DNA from: an uncultured SAR86 cluster bacterium
Lineage (GTDB): Bacteria > Pseudomonadota > Gammaproteobacteria > Magnimaribacterales > D2472
Direction of reading: 5' to 3'
Length of the DNA: 64,000 nucleotides
Assembly (NCBI GenBank): GCA_902593675.1
Contig: CACJJI010000002.1
Span: 186,001 to 250,000, forward strand
Positions 1 to 9,873 of this stretch are shown piece by piece. The notes beneath the pieces were generated by a model, which saw only the letters and a list, made by a program, of their open reading frames with translations, did not search any database and had not been told where the DNA came from. The stretch's first letter is position 1. Each line of letters opens with the position of its first letter. A program made the translations under genes and the position numbers.

Positions 1-692
1 GCCTGTTTGGTTAAAGTTAAACCCAGTCTTGGCATTGCAGATATTTTTTTGGCCATCTCCATAACGGTTGATTCAAGATTCTCAATAGGAACAACCTTAT
101 TAACCATGCCCATTTCATAAGCTCTTGATGAAGACATTCTCTCGCCAAGAAATAGAAATTCTTTTGCGATTCTTGGATTTAACTCATATGGATGAGCAAA
201 ATATTCAACTCCTGGAATTCCCATACGTACAACTGGATCAGCAAAAAAAGCATCCTCAGATGCAATAATAAGATCACATACCCACGCCAACATGCATCCA
301 CCTGCAACACAGGCACCATGTACCATAGCAATTGTTGGTTTAGGCATATCTCTCCAGCGCCTACACATGTTTAAATAAACTTCTTGTTCTCTAACGTACC
401 AAAACTCTCCACCAGGCTTATTGGTGTGGTCGTACCACATAGATTTTCGGTCGTACTCAACATCAACATCTCTTCCAGGTGTGCCGATATCATGGCCTGC
501 TGAAAAATGCTTGCCATTACCTTTAAGCACAATAACCTTTACCTCATCATCATCTATTGCTTTTTTAAAAGCTTTATCTAAGTCATATGTCATCTTTCCA
601 TTTTGTGCATTGTTGTACTCAGGTCTGTTCATAGAAATGACTGCTATTTCATCTTTCTTTTTATAGGTGATTGTTGGTTTGCTTCTAACCAT
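1..692 (-). CDS. Enoyl-CoA hydratase/isomerase (crotonase family), C-terminus cut by window edge
   Basis: About 230 codons read continuously from an ATG at 690-692 to the edge of the window, so the C-terminus is missing. Crotonase signatures are clear: an oxyanion-hole segment GKHFSAGHDIG (about residues 60-70) and a second one, VHGACVAGGCMLAW (about 124-137), followed by the typical DLIIASEDAFFADP strand. Crotonases hydrate, isomerise or hydrolyse CoA thioesters. A loop of about 35 residues between the two motifs (WYDHTNKPGGEFWYVREQ) is longer than in simple crotonases. The gene starts 4 bases after the ipdB-like stop, so it is very probably in the same operon. Mycobacterial ipdAB also lies beside a crotonase (echA20). 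I see no specific EchA20 resemblance, so the exact reaction is open. Confidence 0.85.
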   Translation of the reverse strand, partial: MVRSKPTITYKKKDEIAVISMNRPEYNNAQNGKMTYDLDKAFKKAIDDDEVKVIVLKGNGKHFSAGHDIGTPGRDVDVEYDRKSMWYDHTNKPGGEFWYVREQEVYLNMCRRWRDMPKPTIAMVHGACVAGGCMLAWVCDLIIASEDAFFADPVVRMGIPGVEYFAHPYELNPRIAKEFLFLGERMSSSRAYEMGMVNKVVPIENLESTVMEMAKKISAMPRLGLTLTKQ

Positions 693-696
693 ATCT

Positions 697-1452
697 TTAT
701 TCTCCAAAAATTGAGTTGCGAATACCTTGAGGATCAAGAACCTCTCTGATAAGGGCAAGTTCCTGATCAGAGGGCATTGTTGTAACCTCTTCTGATTTAA
801 TGATTACATCAAAACCAGTATTTGAAATAACATCATCAACACTTACACCGGGATGAAGGCTGATCAACTGCAGTTTATTATTTGCACCATTAAAATCAAA
901 TACGCCTAGATTTGTTACGACAAGTTTTATTTCAAAATTACCATTCGAAAGTTCTTGATTCTTGTAACCCATGCTTGAAACCATATCAACCTCGCCTTGA
1001 ACAAAAGTTTTCTGAGAATGATTCGGAATAAAAATAGAATTTTTATGATGAATCGAGTTTCCAGGGAAACCTCTTACGCCCAATAGTTGAACTTTAGGAG
1101 AATTATAGTCACCTATCGCACTAATATTGGTTTGTCCAAAAGAATCTACTTGTGTTGGGGTTACCATGGCGTGTCGCTTACCTCCCCAAAGATTTTCAAA
1201 GACGCGGCTGTAACTCATATATCCCTCAACTTGATCAGAAGAAGCGTCTCTCTTTCCCATAGGAGCTGGCTCTGCAATTAAATAGGTTTCGCCATCGGTC
1301 ATCATTAAGTCAGGATTGAGAGTTAGCTTTGCTAAGCCTGCGGCGATTCTCGGGATCAAACCAATACCTGTTGCAAGGATTTCACCGTCACCTTTCCATG
1401 CCTTGGAAGCGGCGCTTATGCATATCTCTGCTAATGAAATTGAGTTTGACAT
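697..1452 (-). CDS. ipdB: CoA-transferase family beta subunit, IpdB-like (steroid ring hydrolase)
   Basis: A 251-residue protein of the class I CoA-transferase beta fold. Segments DGEILATG, LLGVRGFPGNSIHHKNS, VVTNLGVFDFNG and LISLHPGVSVDDV match, from memory, the signature stretches of mycobacterial IpdB, which is also about 250 residues. IpdA and IpdB together form a hydrolase that opens the last steroid ring (COCHEA-CoA) in cholesterol breakdown, not a true CoA transferase. The gene follows the alpha subunit after one base, as expected for subunits of one complex. A generic glutaconate/3-oxoacid CoA-transferase is the alternative, but the IpdB-type motifs make that less likely. Assignment by recalled motifs, not by a search. 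Confidence 0.75.
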   Translation of the reverse strand: MSNSISLAEICISAASKAWKGDGEILATGIGLIPRIAAGLAKLTLNPDLMMTDGETYLIAEPAPMGKRDASSDQVEGYMSYSRVFENLWGGKRHAMVTPTQVDSFGQTNISAIGDYNSPKVQLLGVRGFPGNSIHHKNSIFIPNHSQKTFVQGEVDMVSSMGYKNQELSNGNFEIKLVVTNLGVFDFNGANNKLQLISLHPGVSVDDVISNTGFDVIIKSEEVTTMPSDQELALIREVLDPQGIRNSIFGE

Positions 1453-1453
1453 T

Positions 1454-2323
1454 TTAAAATTGTGGTAACGGTATATTTTCTATTGCTTCGGACCCCCCAA
1501 CAGAGTCTAGATATTCCTCATGAGTTTTATTCATATATTTTAAGATATAATCATCAAAGGATTTAGCTGAATCTGAGTATTCTTTTAAATGACTCATGTC
1601 AAATCCATAATTTGGTGCGCATGATGTTGGATGAGCTCCACAGGGAGAATGAACCACTCCAGTGACAAGACTTCTCTCAAATCTATTATAAATAGCTCCT
1701 TCCTTGCCCCCCAACTCTTGAGTAGATACAACTTCTTCAGAAGATACAAAAGTCTTAGTGGCTGCCCTAGCAAAGAGGTCATCAAAAAATGGGTCAGGGC
1801 CTATTATTTGAGTATTTCCTTTTTCATCAGATTTATTAACATGAAGTAATGCAACATCCAGATTCAGGGCAGGCATAGCAACAAGTCTTTCAGCATCTGA
1901 ATAAGGTGATGTAACTAACTTTAATTCTGGGCTATGTTTCAAAACATCTGTACCTAAACCTATTCTGGTTGGTAAAAAAGGTAAGTTCATTGCAGCTGCA
2001 CGTAAGCCCCACTGCAACATCCCCTCATCTAACTCCATTACTTCAATTTCTTGATTCTGACGAGCTTGACGGAAATGAACCTCCAAAGGAATTAAATCTA
2101 AAGAAACAAAACCAAAGATTAGTTTTTTTACCTTTTTATGTGCACAAAGCAAGCCTACGTCTGGGCCACCATAACTAACAACCGTTAGATCTTTAAGATC
2201 TGATTGGCATATTGCTCTAATCAAGGACATTGGCTTTCTTCTGGCACCCCATCCACCAACGCCAATGGTCATATTGCTTGTTAGCTGATCTAGCACATCT
2301 TGATGCCTAAGCACTTTATCCAT
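1454..2323 (-). CDS. ipdA: CoA-transferase family alpha subunit, IpdA-like (steroid ring hydrolase)
   Basis: A 289-residue alpha subunit. N-terminal MTIGVGGWGARRKPM (about 18-32), TVVSYGGPDVGLLC (47-60), GFVSLD (71-76) and LDEGMLQWGLRAAAMNLPFLPTRIGLG (98-124) closely follow the recalled IpdA pattern, including the Glu of DEGM (Glu100) in the region where IpdA carries its catalytic glutamate. In actinobacteria and Comamonas the equivalent proteins (IpdA, ScdL1) act on the CoA-linked remnant of steroid rings C and D. Partner of the downstream beta subunit. Three bases separate it from the upstream dioxygenase gene, indicating one transcript. Confidence 0.78.
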   Translation of the reverse strand: MDKVLRHQDVLDQLTSNMTIGVGGWGARRKPMSLIRAICQSDLKDLTVVSYGGPDVGLLCAHKKVKKLIFGFVSLDLIPLEVHFRQARQNQEIEVMELDEGMLQWGLRAAAMNLPFLPTRIGLGTDVLKHSPELKLVTSPYSDAERLVAMPALNLDVALLHVNKSDEKGNTQIIGPDPFFDDLFARAATKTFVSSEEVVSTQELGGKEGAIYNRFERSLVTGVVHSPCGAHPTSCAPNYGFDMSHLKEYSDSAKSFDDYILKYMNKTHEEYLDSVGGSEAIENIPLPQF

Positions 2324-2326
2324 AAA

Positions 2327-3229
2327 TTATGCCTCAGGCATATTAAATTCATGCCCCCAGTAGCTTGGAGCTGGAGAATTAGTGGTTTCAAAAGTATCCC
2401 AGTCGGGTTGAATGCCATCATACCCAAACTCAAGCATAAACCCAGCTGGAGTTTGCATATAAAAAGAGAACATTTTGTCATTCATGTGTCGCCCCAGAGT
2501 TGAAGAAATATGTACATTATTAGCAACAGCCCTATCTAAAGCATCAACAACCTGTTCTGCTGTTTCTACTTCGACCATAGCATGAACAAGCCCTGATGGT
2601 GGCGTTGGAGCTTGCATCATTGCAACAGTATGATGCCTTGGATTATCACAATGCATAAAGTATAAAACTGATTCTGGATCATTTGGATCAGGCGAAAATT
2701 TCATTCGCATAATATCTGAATCTCCAAAGCCTAAAACATCGGTATAAAATGTATGTGCAGCTTCTACCTCTAATGTCCCAAAAACAACATGACCCAAACC
2801 TAAACCATGAGTTACAAAAGCGGATATTTCTTGAGATGATTGAAATGCATTTTGATCAACCGACCTTCCATAGAAAAGCTCAAGGCGATTTCCAGCTGGA
2901 TCAGTAAAGCTAATTAATTCCTCTACACATCTTTGTTTAGCAAGCTCGTCATTCTCAGAATTAAATTCTATGCCAGCCTCAGCTAGTTCTTTTTGAGCGC
3001 TATCAAAGTCTTCTTTACTGCTGAGCTCAAAACCACCTAAATTATATCTATCTGCATCACCTTTTTGGACATGAAATCTAAAAGGACTCTCATCCATTCG
3101 AAGAAAAAGATTATTTTCATCACTTTTTTCTTCATTTTTCATTAACCCAACAACGTCCCGGGCATATGTTTCCCAAAGACTAATGTCTGTTGAATCAATG
3201 ACAATGTAACTCAAAGATTTAATCTTCAT
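2327..3229 (-). CDS. Type I extradiol ring-cleavage dioxygenase (VOC fold; HsaC/BphC type)
   Basis: I place the start at the ATG ending at 3229 (300 residues), preceded by a good AGGGGG ribosome site. An upstream ATG at 3313 in the same frame adds 28 residues unlike the family. Two VOC modules are visible: a degenerate N-terminal one (SYIVIDSTDISLWETYARDVVGL) and a catalytic C-terminal one with the three Fe ligands His (LGHVVFG), His (RHHTVAMM) and Glu (FMLEFGYDG). The length of 300 fits HsaC/BphC enzymes, which cleave catechols next to the hydroxyls. Beside ipdAB, a role in opening the catecholic ring A of a secosteroid (HsaC/TesB) is the natural guess. Another aromatic substrate cannot be excluded. 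Confidence 0.75.
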   Translation of the reverse strand: MKIKSLSYIVIDSTDISLWETYARDVVGLMKNEEKSDENNLFLRMDESPFRFHVQKGDADRYNLGGFELSSKEDFDSAQKELAEAGIEFNSENDELAKQRCVEELISFTDPAGNRLELFYGRSVDQNAFQSSQEISAFVTHGLGLGHVVFGTLEVEAAHTFYTDVLGFGDSDIMRMKFSPDPNDPESVLYFMHCDNPRHHTVAMMQAPTPPSGLVHAMVEVETAEQVVDALDRAVANNVHISSTLGRHMNDKMFSFYMQTPAGFMLEFGYDGIQPDWDTFETTNSPAPSYWGHEFNMPEA

Positions 3230-8280: not shown

Positions 8281-9873
8281 TTGAAATCTAAAAAACTAAC
8301 TGATGCTTTAATCATTGGCGGTGGCCACAACGGTCTTGTTTGCGCTTTTTATCTTGCAAATGCTGGTTTAAATGTATCTATTTATGAAAAAAGATCTATT
8401 GTCGGAGGCGCAGCAGTAACTGAGGAGTTTCATCCTGGCTTCAGAAACTCAGTTGCAAGTTATACAGTTAGTCTATTAAATCCTAAAATTATCAAGGACA
8501 TGAATCTTCATGGGCATGGCTTAGAAATTGTTAAACGACCTATTTCAAATTTCCTACCAATAGACCAATCAACTTATCTAAAGCTAGGCGGCGGACTAGT
8601 TAGAACACAAAACGAATTCAAAAAATTTTCTGAAAAAGATGCGGCTCGATTACCTGAGTATTATGATCGAATAGAAGCAGTGGCAGATGTTCTCAGAGAC
8701 CTTTCGATTAAAACACCGCCAAATCCAAAGCAAGGTTTAAGAGCAGCTCTAAATACTGCATTGCAACTTTGGCCAATAGCTACTAAAGGTAATCAAGTGC
8801 ACAGGGATGTATATGATCTATTTACAAAAAGTGCTCGCTCATTTCTTGATTCATGGTTTGAAAATGAGCATATTAAAGCTGCATTTGGTTTTGATTCAAT
8901 AGTTGGAAATTTTGCCAGTCCTGACACGCCAGGTTCAGCCTATGTTTTATTGCATCATGTCTTTGGTGAAGTTGACGGAGAAAAAGGAGCATGGGGTCAT
9001 GCAATCGGTGGCATGGGCGCAATCACTCAAGCAATGCAAAAAGCATGCAATGATATGGGAGTTGAGATTTTTACAGATGCGTCTGTGGATCGAGTAATTG
9101 TTGACGATGGTGCTGCTGTAGGCATTCAACTTGATAGCGGAAATTTAATTAAAGCCAAGAAAATCATTTCTAATCTCAATCCAAAATTACTTTACAAAAA
9201 GTTAATATCGGAAAATGATCTCGACCCAGAGTTTAATCGCAGTATGGATGGCTATAAGTGTGGATCTGGAACTTTTAGGATGAATGTTGCTCTTTCTGAA
9301 TTGCCAGATTTTTCTTCTCTACCTGGTAAAGAATTGGCTGAACACCATCAAAGCGGCATTGTAATCGCCCCAACATTGGACTACATGGACAAAGCGTACA
9401 TTGATGCTAAATCTCATGGTTGGTCTTCAGCACCAATTGTAGAAATGCTAATACCATCTACGATGGACAATACCCTAGCTCCAGAAGGTAAGCACGTTGC
9501 TTCACTGTTTTGCCAACAATTCTCTCCAACCTTGCCAGATGGGAGTTCTTGGCAAGATCATCGTTTGGCTGCTGCAGATACTATTATTGAAACTGTTACA
9601 AAACATGCTCCTAATTTTAGAGAATCCATTTTAGGAATGATGATTTTGTCCCCATTGGATTTAGAAGAAAAATTTGGATTGATTGGCGGTGACATAATGC
9701 ACGGACAAATGTCTCTTGATCAAATGTGGGCAGCTAGGCCATTAATGAACTATGGAAACTATCGAGGACCCCTAAAATCATTGTATATGTGCGGTTCAGG
9801 AACTCATCCTGGGGGTGGAGTAACCGGCCTGCCAGGAAAAAATGCAGCTAGAGAAATTATTAAAGATTTATAA
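8281..9873 (+). CDS. FAD-dependent oxidoreductase, PYROXD2/phytoene-desaturase-like
   Basis: A 530-residue flavoprotein. The N-terminal Rossmann motif is IIGGGHNGLVCAFYLANAG (11-29), followed by YEKRSIVGGAA, which is typical of the PYROXD2 branch of the CrtI superfamily. The C-terminal FAD-binding stretch SLYMCGSGTHPGGGVTGLPGKNAA is intact. Relatives occur widely in marine bacteria with no proven substrate, and the gene should not be read as carotenoid synthesis because no crt genes are near. The start is a TTG at 8281. The stop is one base from the stop of the converging symporter gene. Confidence 0.85.
   Translation: MKSKKLTDALIIGGGHNGLVCAFYLANAGLNVSIYEKRSIVGGAAVTEEFHPGFRNSVASYTVSLLNPKIIKDMNLHGHGLEIVKRPISNFLPIDQSTYLKLGGGLVRTQNEFKKFSEKDAARLPEYYDRIEAVADVLRDLSIKTPPNPKQGLRAALNTALQLWPIATKGNQVHRDVYDLFTKSARSFLDSWFENEHIKAAFGFDSIVGNFASPDTPGSAYVLLHHVFGEVDGEKGAWGHAIGGMGAITQAMQKACNDMGVEIFTDASVDRVIVDDGAAVGIQLDSGNLIKAKKIISNLNPKLLYKKLISENDLDPEFNRSMDGYKCGSGTFRMNVALSELPDFSSLPGKELAEHHQSGIVIAPTLDYMDKAYIDAKSHGWSSAPIVEMLIPSTMDNTLAPEGKHVASLFCQQFSPTLPDGSSWQDHRLAAADTIIETVTKHAPNFRESILGMMILSPLDLEEKFGLIGGDIMHGQMSLDQMWAARPLMNYGNYRGPLKSLYMCGSGTHPGGGVTGLPGKNAAREIIKDL

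Follow-up and report, generated by a model that had tools for sequence, protein, structure and literature searches.

A probable two-piece KshA-type oxygenase encoded near steroid-ring degradation genes in SAR86 bacteria

Do the IpdAB-like and HsaC-like genes at one end of a contig from an uncultured SAR86 cluster bacterium belong to a steroid pathway, and what does the rest of their gene run encode? The stretch of DNA analysed here (the window) comprises 64,000 nucleotides of contig CACJJI010000002.1 (C2:186001-250000) from assembly GCA_902593675.1, a 1.51-Mb genome in 20 contigs with an estimated completeness of 81%. Its first bases carry genes for an HsaC-like dioxygenase, IpdA, IpdB and a crotonase, and past base 1 the minus-strand run goes on for about 17 kb, where it includes ring-C/D genes, hsaDEFG and a gene for a FadD3-type ligase (Table 1). 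The four genes are ordinary steroid-ring-degrading genes of SAR86. The new part is a split oxygenase located downstream, which is related to KshA, the oxygenase of 3-ketosteroid 9-alpha-hydroxylase. Judged from sequence, the run probably serves steroid-ring degradation, with a two-piece 3-ketosteroid 9-alpha-hydroxylase near its end.

In KshA and the Rieske oxygenases described with it in PMC4064121, a single chain carries both the cluster and the iron site. Here, the larger protein of the pair (281 residues) matches the KshA_C domain with 193 bits and has no Rieske motif (no CxH..CxxH), and the smaller one (147 residues), encoded just upstream of the catalytic gene, contains only a Rieske domain by Pfam. 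Aligned with fused KshA, the catalytic protein shows the initial strands of the Rieske fold and, after a break of about 47 residues, continues with the last strand; the missing region, which appears as gaps of 6 and 41 residues (as a single gap of 49 in genome G036), holds all four cluster ligands. The 147-residue protein spans the KshA Rieske domain and ends where the catalytic domain would start. The catalytic part is 41-50% identical to fused KshA, and the Rieske part 42-45%. All 16 aligned rows agree in Cys67, His69, Cys86 and His89 of the Rieske protein as well as in the iron triad of the catalytic protein (His117, His122 and Asp231); the bridging Asp114 is found in 15 of them and masked as X in the remaining one. 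The Asp-x2-His-x4-His spacing equals that of Mycobacterium tuberculosis KshA (Asp178, His181 and His186), in which the Asp connects one subunit's Rieske centre with the iron in the adjacent subunit (PMC4064121).

The split form thus shares with KshA (PDB 2zyl, 4qdc and 4qdf) the KshA_C domain, the spacing and the bridging Asp, but differs in that the cluster motif resides on a separate 147-residue protein and the cluster-binding stretch is gone from the oxygenase. In terms of KshA membership, the catalytic domain with its 2-His-1-carboxylate triad and bridging Asp is present, and the Rieske [2Fe-2S] motif is encoded by the neighbouring gene instead of on the same polypeptide. A separate small Rieske ferredoxin that feeds an oxygenase is also found in carbazole/cumene dioxygenase-like systems. 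In those multi-component oxygenases, however, the alpha subunit retains its own Rieske cluster, whereas the SAR86 catalytic protein has none.

How widespread is this arrangement? A pattern scan with the split-oxygenase alignment over a collection of 84,980 species returned 26 loci, of which 20, SAR86E and the closed genome CP097973.1 among them, bear the title SAR86 cluster bacterium, in line with the SAR86 host supposed by the initial annotation; the other six are metagenome-assembled genomes titled merely Proteobacteria, Gammaproteobacteria or bacterium. Many of these named loci and of the genomes in our surveys (G numbers) probably represent the same genomes, so the counts overlap. In a first survey of 60 genomes, counting the window's own, 20 had the pair, and in every one of them the Rieske gene adjoined the catalytic gene. 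Across the SAR86 order, the split form occurs in 28 of 203 genomes, in 5 of 22 genera and in two families, all of these counts being lower bounds since incomplete genomes are among them; a 29th genome matched through a fused KshA alone. Of the nine further loci from the order search, eight have the two genes side by side, and the ninth (L133) starts inside the catalytic gene. The pair is adjacent in every locus long enough to hold both genes.

Both open reading frames are whole in 23 of the 26 named loci, the other three being cut by contig ends. Together with the recurrence in 28 of 203 genomes of the order, this led us to reject a sequencing or assembly artefact. Production of a single protein by stop read-through was likewise rejected, given that the reading frames differ in 14 of these 23 loci (they are the same in nine) and that vestiges of Rieske beta strands persist in the catalytic protein itself. 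In G036, locus L077 had looked like another split form but proved to be a KshA of the fused type that is truncated where the stretch ends. The catalytic gene is under strong purifying selection, with nonsynonymous divergence (dN) of 0.02-0.16 against synonymous divergence (dS) of at least 0.8 in five pairs, one of which is saturated.

In a KshA tree of 20 rows, from which the plasmid KshAs of Vibrio and Sphingobium herbicidovorans were left out, nine split rows form one clade (100/99) that groups with KshA proteins, apart from two other oxygenases of the window's own genome. Its nearest neighbours are two intact KshAs of another gammaproteobacterium, G219 (88/91), and the fused SAR86 KshA branches elsewhere. 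Among the 368 other genomes of a class sample, G219 was also the only one to match the split profile at E 1e-40, through two proteins that are both fused. The split layout thus appears, within the searches made, solely in SAR86-like genomes, and among the matches listed from the open PMC literature, no title or abstract opening described a Rieske-less or split oxygenase. We infer that the split form arose once before these SAR86 families parted, or once with subsequent transfer. It may have passed through two KshA copies, perhaps acquired separately from the fused SAR86 KshA, that underwent complementary loss.

Would the pair be the 9-alpha-hydroxylase of the pathway? The initial annotation had named a lack of other steroid genes in the genome as contrary to its reading; such genes are present on contig C1. 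There, at 323.9-329.6 kb, the gene for a fused KshA is grouped with one for an HsaA-like oxygenase (344 of 450 bits) and two for KstD-like proteins, and a further KstD-like gene is located at 119.6-121.3 kb. Together with the run, they give the genome the 9,10-seco set by family, with HsaB and KshB uncertain. Among the 28 split-bearing genomes, a fused KshA (>200 bits) was detected in six, one copy being cut at a contig end, and the other 22, many of them incomplete, show none. Weaker KshA_C relatives (66-126 bits) occur in 25 of the 28, and the split form stands alone in three genomes: G010, G472 and G476 (91% complete). In the part of G009 that was read, the syntenic place lacks the kstD-kshA-hsaA block.

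The closed genome CP097973.1 (G032) is the most informative, as tblastn over all but 506 of its bases found no fused KshA. It encodes the split pair, KstD (80% identical to that of the window's genome), an HsaA homologue (42%; HsaA is its best family with 375 of 450 bits), a flavin reductase (52%), HsaC, HsaD, HsaEFG, the FadD3-type ligase, ipdAB, the P450 and both short-chain dehydrogenases/reductases (SDRs), as well as the EthD protein, the thiolase, both acyl-CoA dehydrogenases, the second crotonase, the nitronate monooxygenase (NMO)-type protein and the LLM protein. Two Lrp-type regulators, a hydroxyacid dehydrogenase and a major facilitator superfamily transporter were unmatched at 1e-10; the queries did not include the first crotonase. 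Most of the pathway without a fused KshA is the best argument for the pair as the 9-alpha-hydroxylase. We lean, by a modest degree, towards a natural split Rieske non-heme iron oxygenase of a single KshA-type origin that would replace the fused 9-alpha-hydroxylase in most steroid-degrading SAR86 bacteria.

How could such a pair function? In the scheme that we propose, HsaC would open the aromatised A ring, HsaD and HsaEFG would process the products of ring opening, and IpdC, a crotonase, IpdAB and the thiolase would break down rings C and D, with the 3-ketosteroid 9-alpha-hydroxylase encoded near the end of the run being made in two pieces. The small Rieske protein would carry the [2Fe-2S] cluster, and the KshA catalytic protein, having lost the cluster stretch, retains the iron ligands His117, His122 and Asp231 along with the bridging Asp114. 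By docking beside Asp114, the Rieske protein could pass electrons to the mononuclear iron, so that an external protein would substitute for the Rieske domain contributed by the neighbouring subunit in a normal KshA.

Several observations weigh against a two-piece 9-alpha-hydroxylase. The catalytic protein has a poor AlphaFold model (mean predicted local distance difference test, pLDDT, of 53); the Rieske protein was modelled well (pLDDT 82). The six best PDB matches of the catalytic-protein model by Foldseek are all KshA (best E 1.7e-17), which, given its mostly low confidence, supports kinship with KshA and not structural detail. The HsaB candidate scores 50 bits for HsaB (cut-off 230) and matches RutF better. 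No KshB-like reductase was found in the 81% complete genome, in which the sole NAD_binding_1 match is NqrF-like. G032 encodes two other KshA_C-family oxygenases (open frames of 336 and 323 residues) that could perform the 9-alpha step, and the fused KshA of the window's genome lies beside kstD and hsaA, so the pair could have another substrate there. The last point leads to a rather unlikely alternative, in which the pair is a real two-protein oxygenase acting on another position or intermediate (for example, the side chain, a 4-methyl group or rings C/D), and the opening of ring B is left to a fused KshA or some other Rieske oxygenase. Such a role would suit the location of the pair in the ring-C/D and HsaDEFG run, away from kstD and hsaA, and the only NCBIfam match of the stand-alone Rieske protein at E 1e-10, which is weak: 4beta-methylsterol monooxygenase with 42 of 600 bits. 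Against it stand the 22 split-bearing genomes without a detected fused KshA and the closed G032, which lacks one and retains HsaA, KstD and HsaC, as well as the clustering of the split form with KshA proteins in the tree.

The loss of the cluster could also mean that the catalytic-looking protein is redox-dead and serves in steroid binding, scaffolding or sensing, with the Rieske protein acting as ferredoxin to the P450 or another oxygenase; the P450, the LLM flavoprotein and the two Lrp-type regulators encoded in the same run would fit such roles. We consider this improbable because the iron triad and bridging Asp are retained in every readable aligned row, the catalytic gene is under purifying selection, the Rieske protein is 42-45% identical to the KshA Rieske domain, and the two genes stay adjacent. 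It is very unlikely that the genes degrade another polycyclic compound, such as resin-acid diterpenoids or hopanoids, instead of steroids. The HsaC, HsaA and KstD proteins do score below the NCBI equivalog cut-offs, and the P450 and LLM protein are additional in the run; yet the hydrolase-type IpdAB residues (see below), the IpdC-type and FadD3-family neighbours and the KshA, KstD and HsaA types all occur in one genome, and the gene order follows that of steroid clusters.

Table 1. Genes of the minus-strand run. The first four positions are those of the window; the others refer to L002 (C2:166001-186000), the stretch before window base 1, whose coordinates are used for the downstream genes.
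Feature	Position	Strand	Match or remark
hsaC-like gene heading the run (extradiol dioxygenase, 300 aa)	2327..3229	-	phmmer 2zi8, 7.7e-61
ipdA, alpha subunit of COCHEA-CoA hydrolase type	1454..2323	-	6co6_A, 2e-77
ipdB, beta subunit	697..1452	-	6con_B, 1.2e-56; 6co6_B, 1.7e-54
Crotonase, PRK08290 type	1..692, on to C2:185781 before the window	-	379 bits, cut-off 280
NMO/FabK-type protein, ipdC position	L002:19714-18713	-	
Second crotonase	L002:18716-17955	-	
fadE (acyl-CoA dehydrogenase)	L002:17962-16814	-	
fadE (acyl-CoA dehydrogenase)	L002:16808-15771	-	
Thiolase	L002:15758-14604	-	
SDR	L002:14613-13825	-	
EthD-domain protein	L002:13824-13132	-	
Second SDR	L002:13093-12320	-	
P450, between SDR and hsaD	L002:12308-10959	-	70-99% identity across the 21 named loci showing it
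hsaD-like	L002:10954-10145	-	179 of 400 bits, below cut-off
hsaE	L002:10141-9356	-	
hsaG	L002:9353-8430	-	
hsaF	L002:8433-7417	-	
LLM flavoprotein	L002:7420-6548	-	TIGR03619-like, below cut-off
Stand-alone Rieske protein, 147 aa	L002:6455-6012	-	
Cluster-less KshA catalytic protein, 281 aa	L002:6002-5157 (C2:171157-172002)	-	
Lrp/AsnC-type regulators, two overlapping genes that immediately follow the split oxygenase	L002:5132-4220	-	
FadD3-type ligase	L002:4241-2679	-	680 of 657 bits, above cut-off

Do the four genes at the start of the window support a steroid pathway? As the initial annotation described, they are tightly packed on one strand, with gaps of 3, 1 and 4 bases, and its IpdA-, IpdB- and BphC/HsaC-type assignments rest on matches well above chance (Table 1). 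The matched entries 6con and 6co6, titled CoA-transferase subunits in the PDB, are those we take to be IpdAB, the COCHEA-CoA hydrolase of M. tuberculosis and Rhodococcus jostii, and 2zi8, titled probable BphC, is presumably the HsaC of actinobacteria. IpdA scores 263 bits to 6co6_A against 88 bits (4.7e-24) to the glutaconate CoA-transferase 1poi_A, and IpdB 195 bits to the IpdB chain against 69 bits to CoA-transferases. Among the best 30 of 307 plasmid matches listed, scores drop from 320 bits for IpdA to 132 bits for the next CoA-transferases. Glu100 of IpdA aligns with a residue that is Ala in entry 6coj, presumably at the position of the catalytic Glu105 of IpdA. Gly54 of IpdB aligns at the catalytic-Glu position of the CoA-transferase beta subunit, which is replaced by Gly in IpdAB (Gly57 in RHA1; PMC5380842). 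The two residues together are consistent with a hydrolase rather than a transferase.

In a 17-row tree, the window IpdA groups with other SAR86 IpdA proteins, near proteobacterial IpdA with the hsaC-ipdA order, and the four glutaconate-type rows form a separate branch (98/94). The alpha subunit is hence not placed with the glutaconate-type CoA-transferases, a position that the initial annotation had named as contrary to its reading, although support at the base of the IpdA group is low (56/42). The dioxygenase has 2zi8 as its closest solved relative but stays under the NCBIfam cut-offs (270 of 450 bits for HsaC and 282 of 366 for BphC), for which reason we name this divergent member HsaC-like; it contains the motifs GLGHV, RHHT and LEFGY, which we assume to carry the metal ligands. 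Elsewhere in the window, a CrtO/CrtI-family FAD oxidoreductase (8281-9873), which scores 270 of 1000 bits against the CrtO model of beta-carotene ketolase, is possibly a carotenoid enzyme.

The extension of the contig past base 1, proposed in the initial annotation, brought hsaDEFG, the FadD3-family ligase, an ipdC-type reductase and the thiolase next door, and one of the two acyl-CoA dehydrogenases is IpdE2-like (115 of 450 bits). We infer that the run is one transcript. At least one Lrp-type regulator is encoded in 22 of the 26 named loci; two loci end earlier, and L093 and L094 are without one. These Lrp/AsnC-type regulators are possibly steroid-responsive.

Is the hsaC-ipdAB junction itself peculiar, as the initial annotation supposed? 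Plasmid plas1 of Vibrio alfacsensis carries, in order, genes for a VOC protein, a CoA-transferase, a hypothetical protein (at the ipdB position), an enoyl-CoA hydratase, a nitronate monooxygenase, another enoyl-CoA hydratase, two acyl-CoA dehydrogenases, a thiolase and an SDR, its two crotonases being of the PRK08290 and PRK07938 types, as in the SAR86 run. A plasmid of Sphingobium sp. TomTYG43 has hsaC, two CoA-transferase subunits, an enoyl-CoA hydratase, a 2-nitropropane dioxygenase and echA20. Because echA20 occupies the place of the second SAR86 crotonase, the window crotonase is probably not EchA20. Order and strand on both plasmids equal those of the SAR86 run as far as they were read, and unlike them, the SAR86 run proceeds into the EthD protein, SDR, P450, hsaDEFG, LLM protein and split oxygenase. 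In the class sample of 369 genomes, IpdA was found in four besides the window's own; an hsaC-like gene directly precedes ipdA in three of these four non-SAR86 gammaproteobacterial genomes, and the fourth has hsaC beside a kshA. The junction is thus no peculiarity of SAR86, consistent with the account in PMC4810484 that most proteobacterial genomes hold these genes in one cluster. The IpdAB genes of M. tuberculosis and R. jostii share with those of SAR86 both subunits, the key residues and ring-C/D neighbours, but the SAR86 run starts with hsaC, like the other proteobacteria examined and unlike these two.

Steroid use in SAR86, the further suggestion of the initial annotation, is borne out as to the pathway and is not novel. 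SAR86 was listed among predicted steroid degraders in 2016 (PMC4810484), and several genomes of the Suzuki family were reported in 2024 to carry tesI, hsaA, hsaC, hsaD, fadD3, kshA and kstD, with ring-degradation genes in only some genera of that family (PMC11582366). With these reports in print, the early inferences on host and pathway were right, but known in outline. The pathway is common to those accounts and ours; the terms 'ipd' and 'Rieske' have no match in the main text of PMC11582366. We found IpdA in 27 of 60 genomes, the own genome included: 23 of 25 congeners, 2 of 10 genomes from the rest of the family and 1 of 24 from the rest of the order. This spread fits the picture in PMC11582366 if the host family is the Suzuki family.

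Other small clusters of the host genome (L042:9076-10770, L043:17564-18565, L046:6472-7467 and L045:9623-13014) encode KstD-like flavoproteins, two KshA_C oxygenases (331-333 residues) and small open reading frames that by their look we take for SnoaL-type isomerases, as if several steroid-like substrates were handled. Coenzyme F420 biosynthesis genes are located at L045:1322-5944 (C1:111322-115944) and in G032 at C1:708164-712672; CofE and CofD are each above the TIGRFAM cut-off, and for the fused CofGH both domain models are above and the fused model is just under. As the LLM protein of the run resembles F420-dependent LLM enzymes, F420 may serve steroid breakdown.

With this run, a pathway known in one of the most abundant groups of ocean bacteria gains ring-C/D genes and named candidates for them. 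The split oxygenase is weightier than the gene run, as its two redox centres could be mixed, titrated and mutated independently. A conserved split form raises the question of why the fused form is the rule. If the two-piece 9-alpha-hydroxylase is true, it would provide a natural test of whether a Rieske domain needs covalent attachment for electron transfer across subunits.

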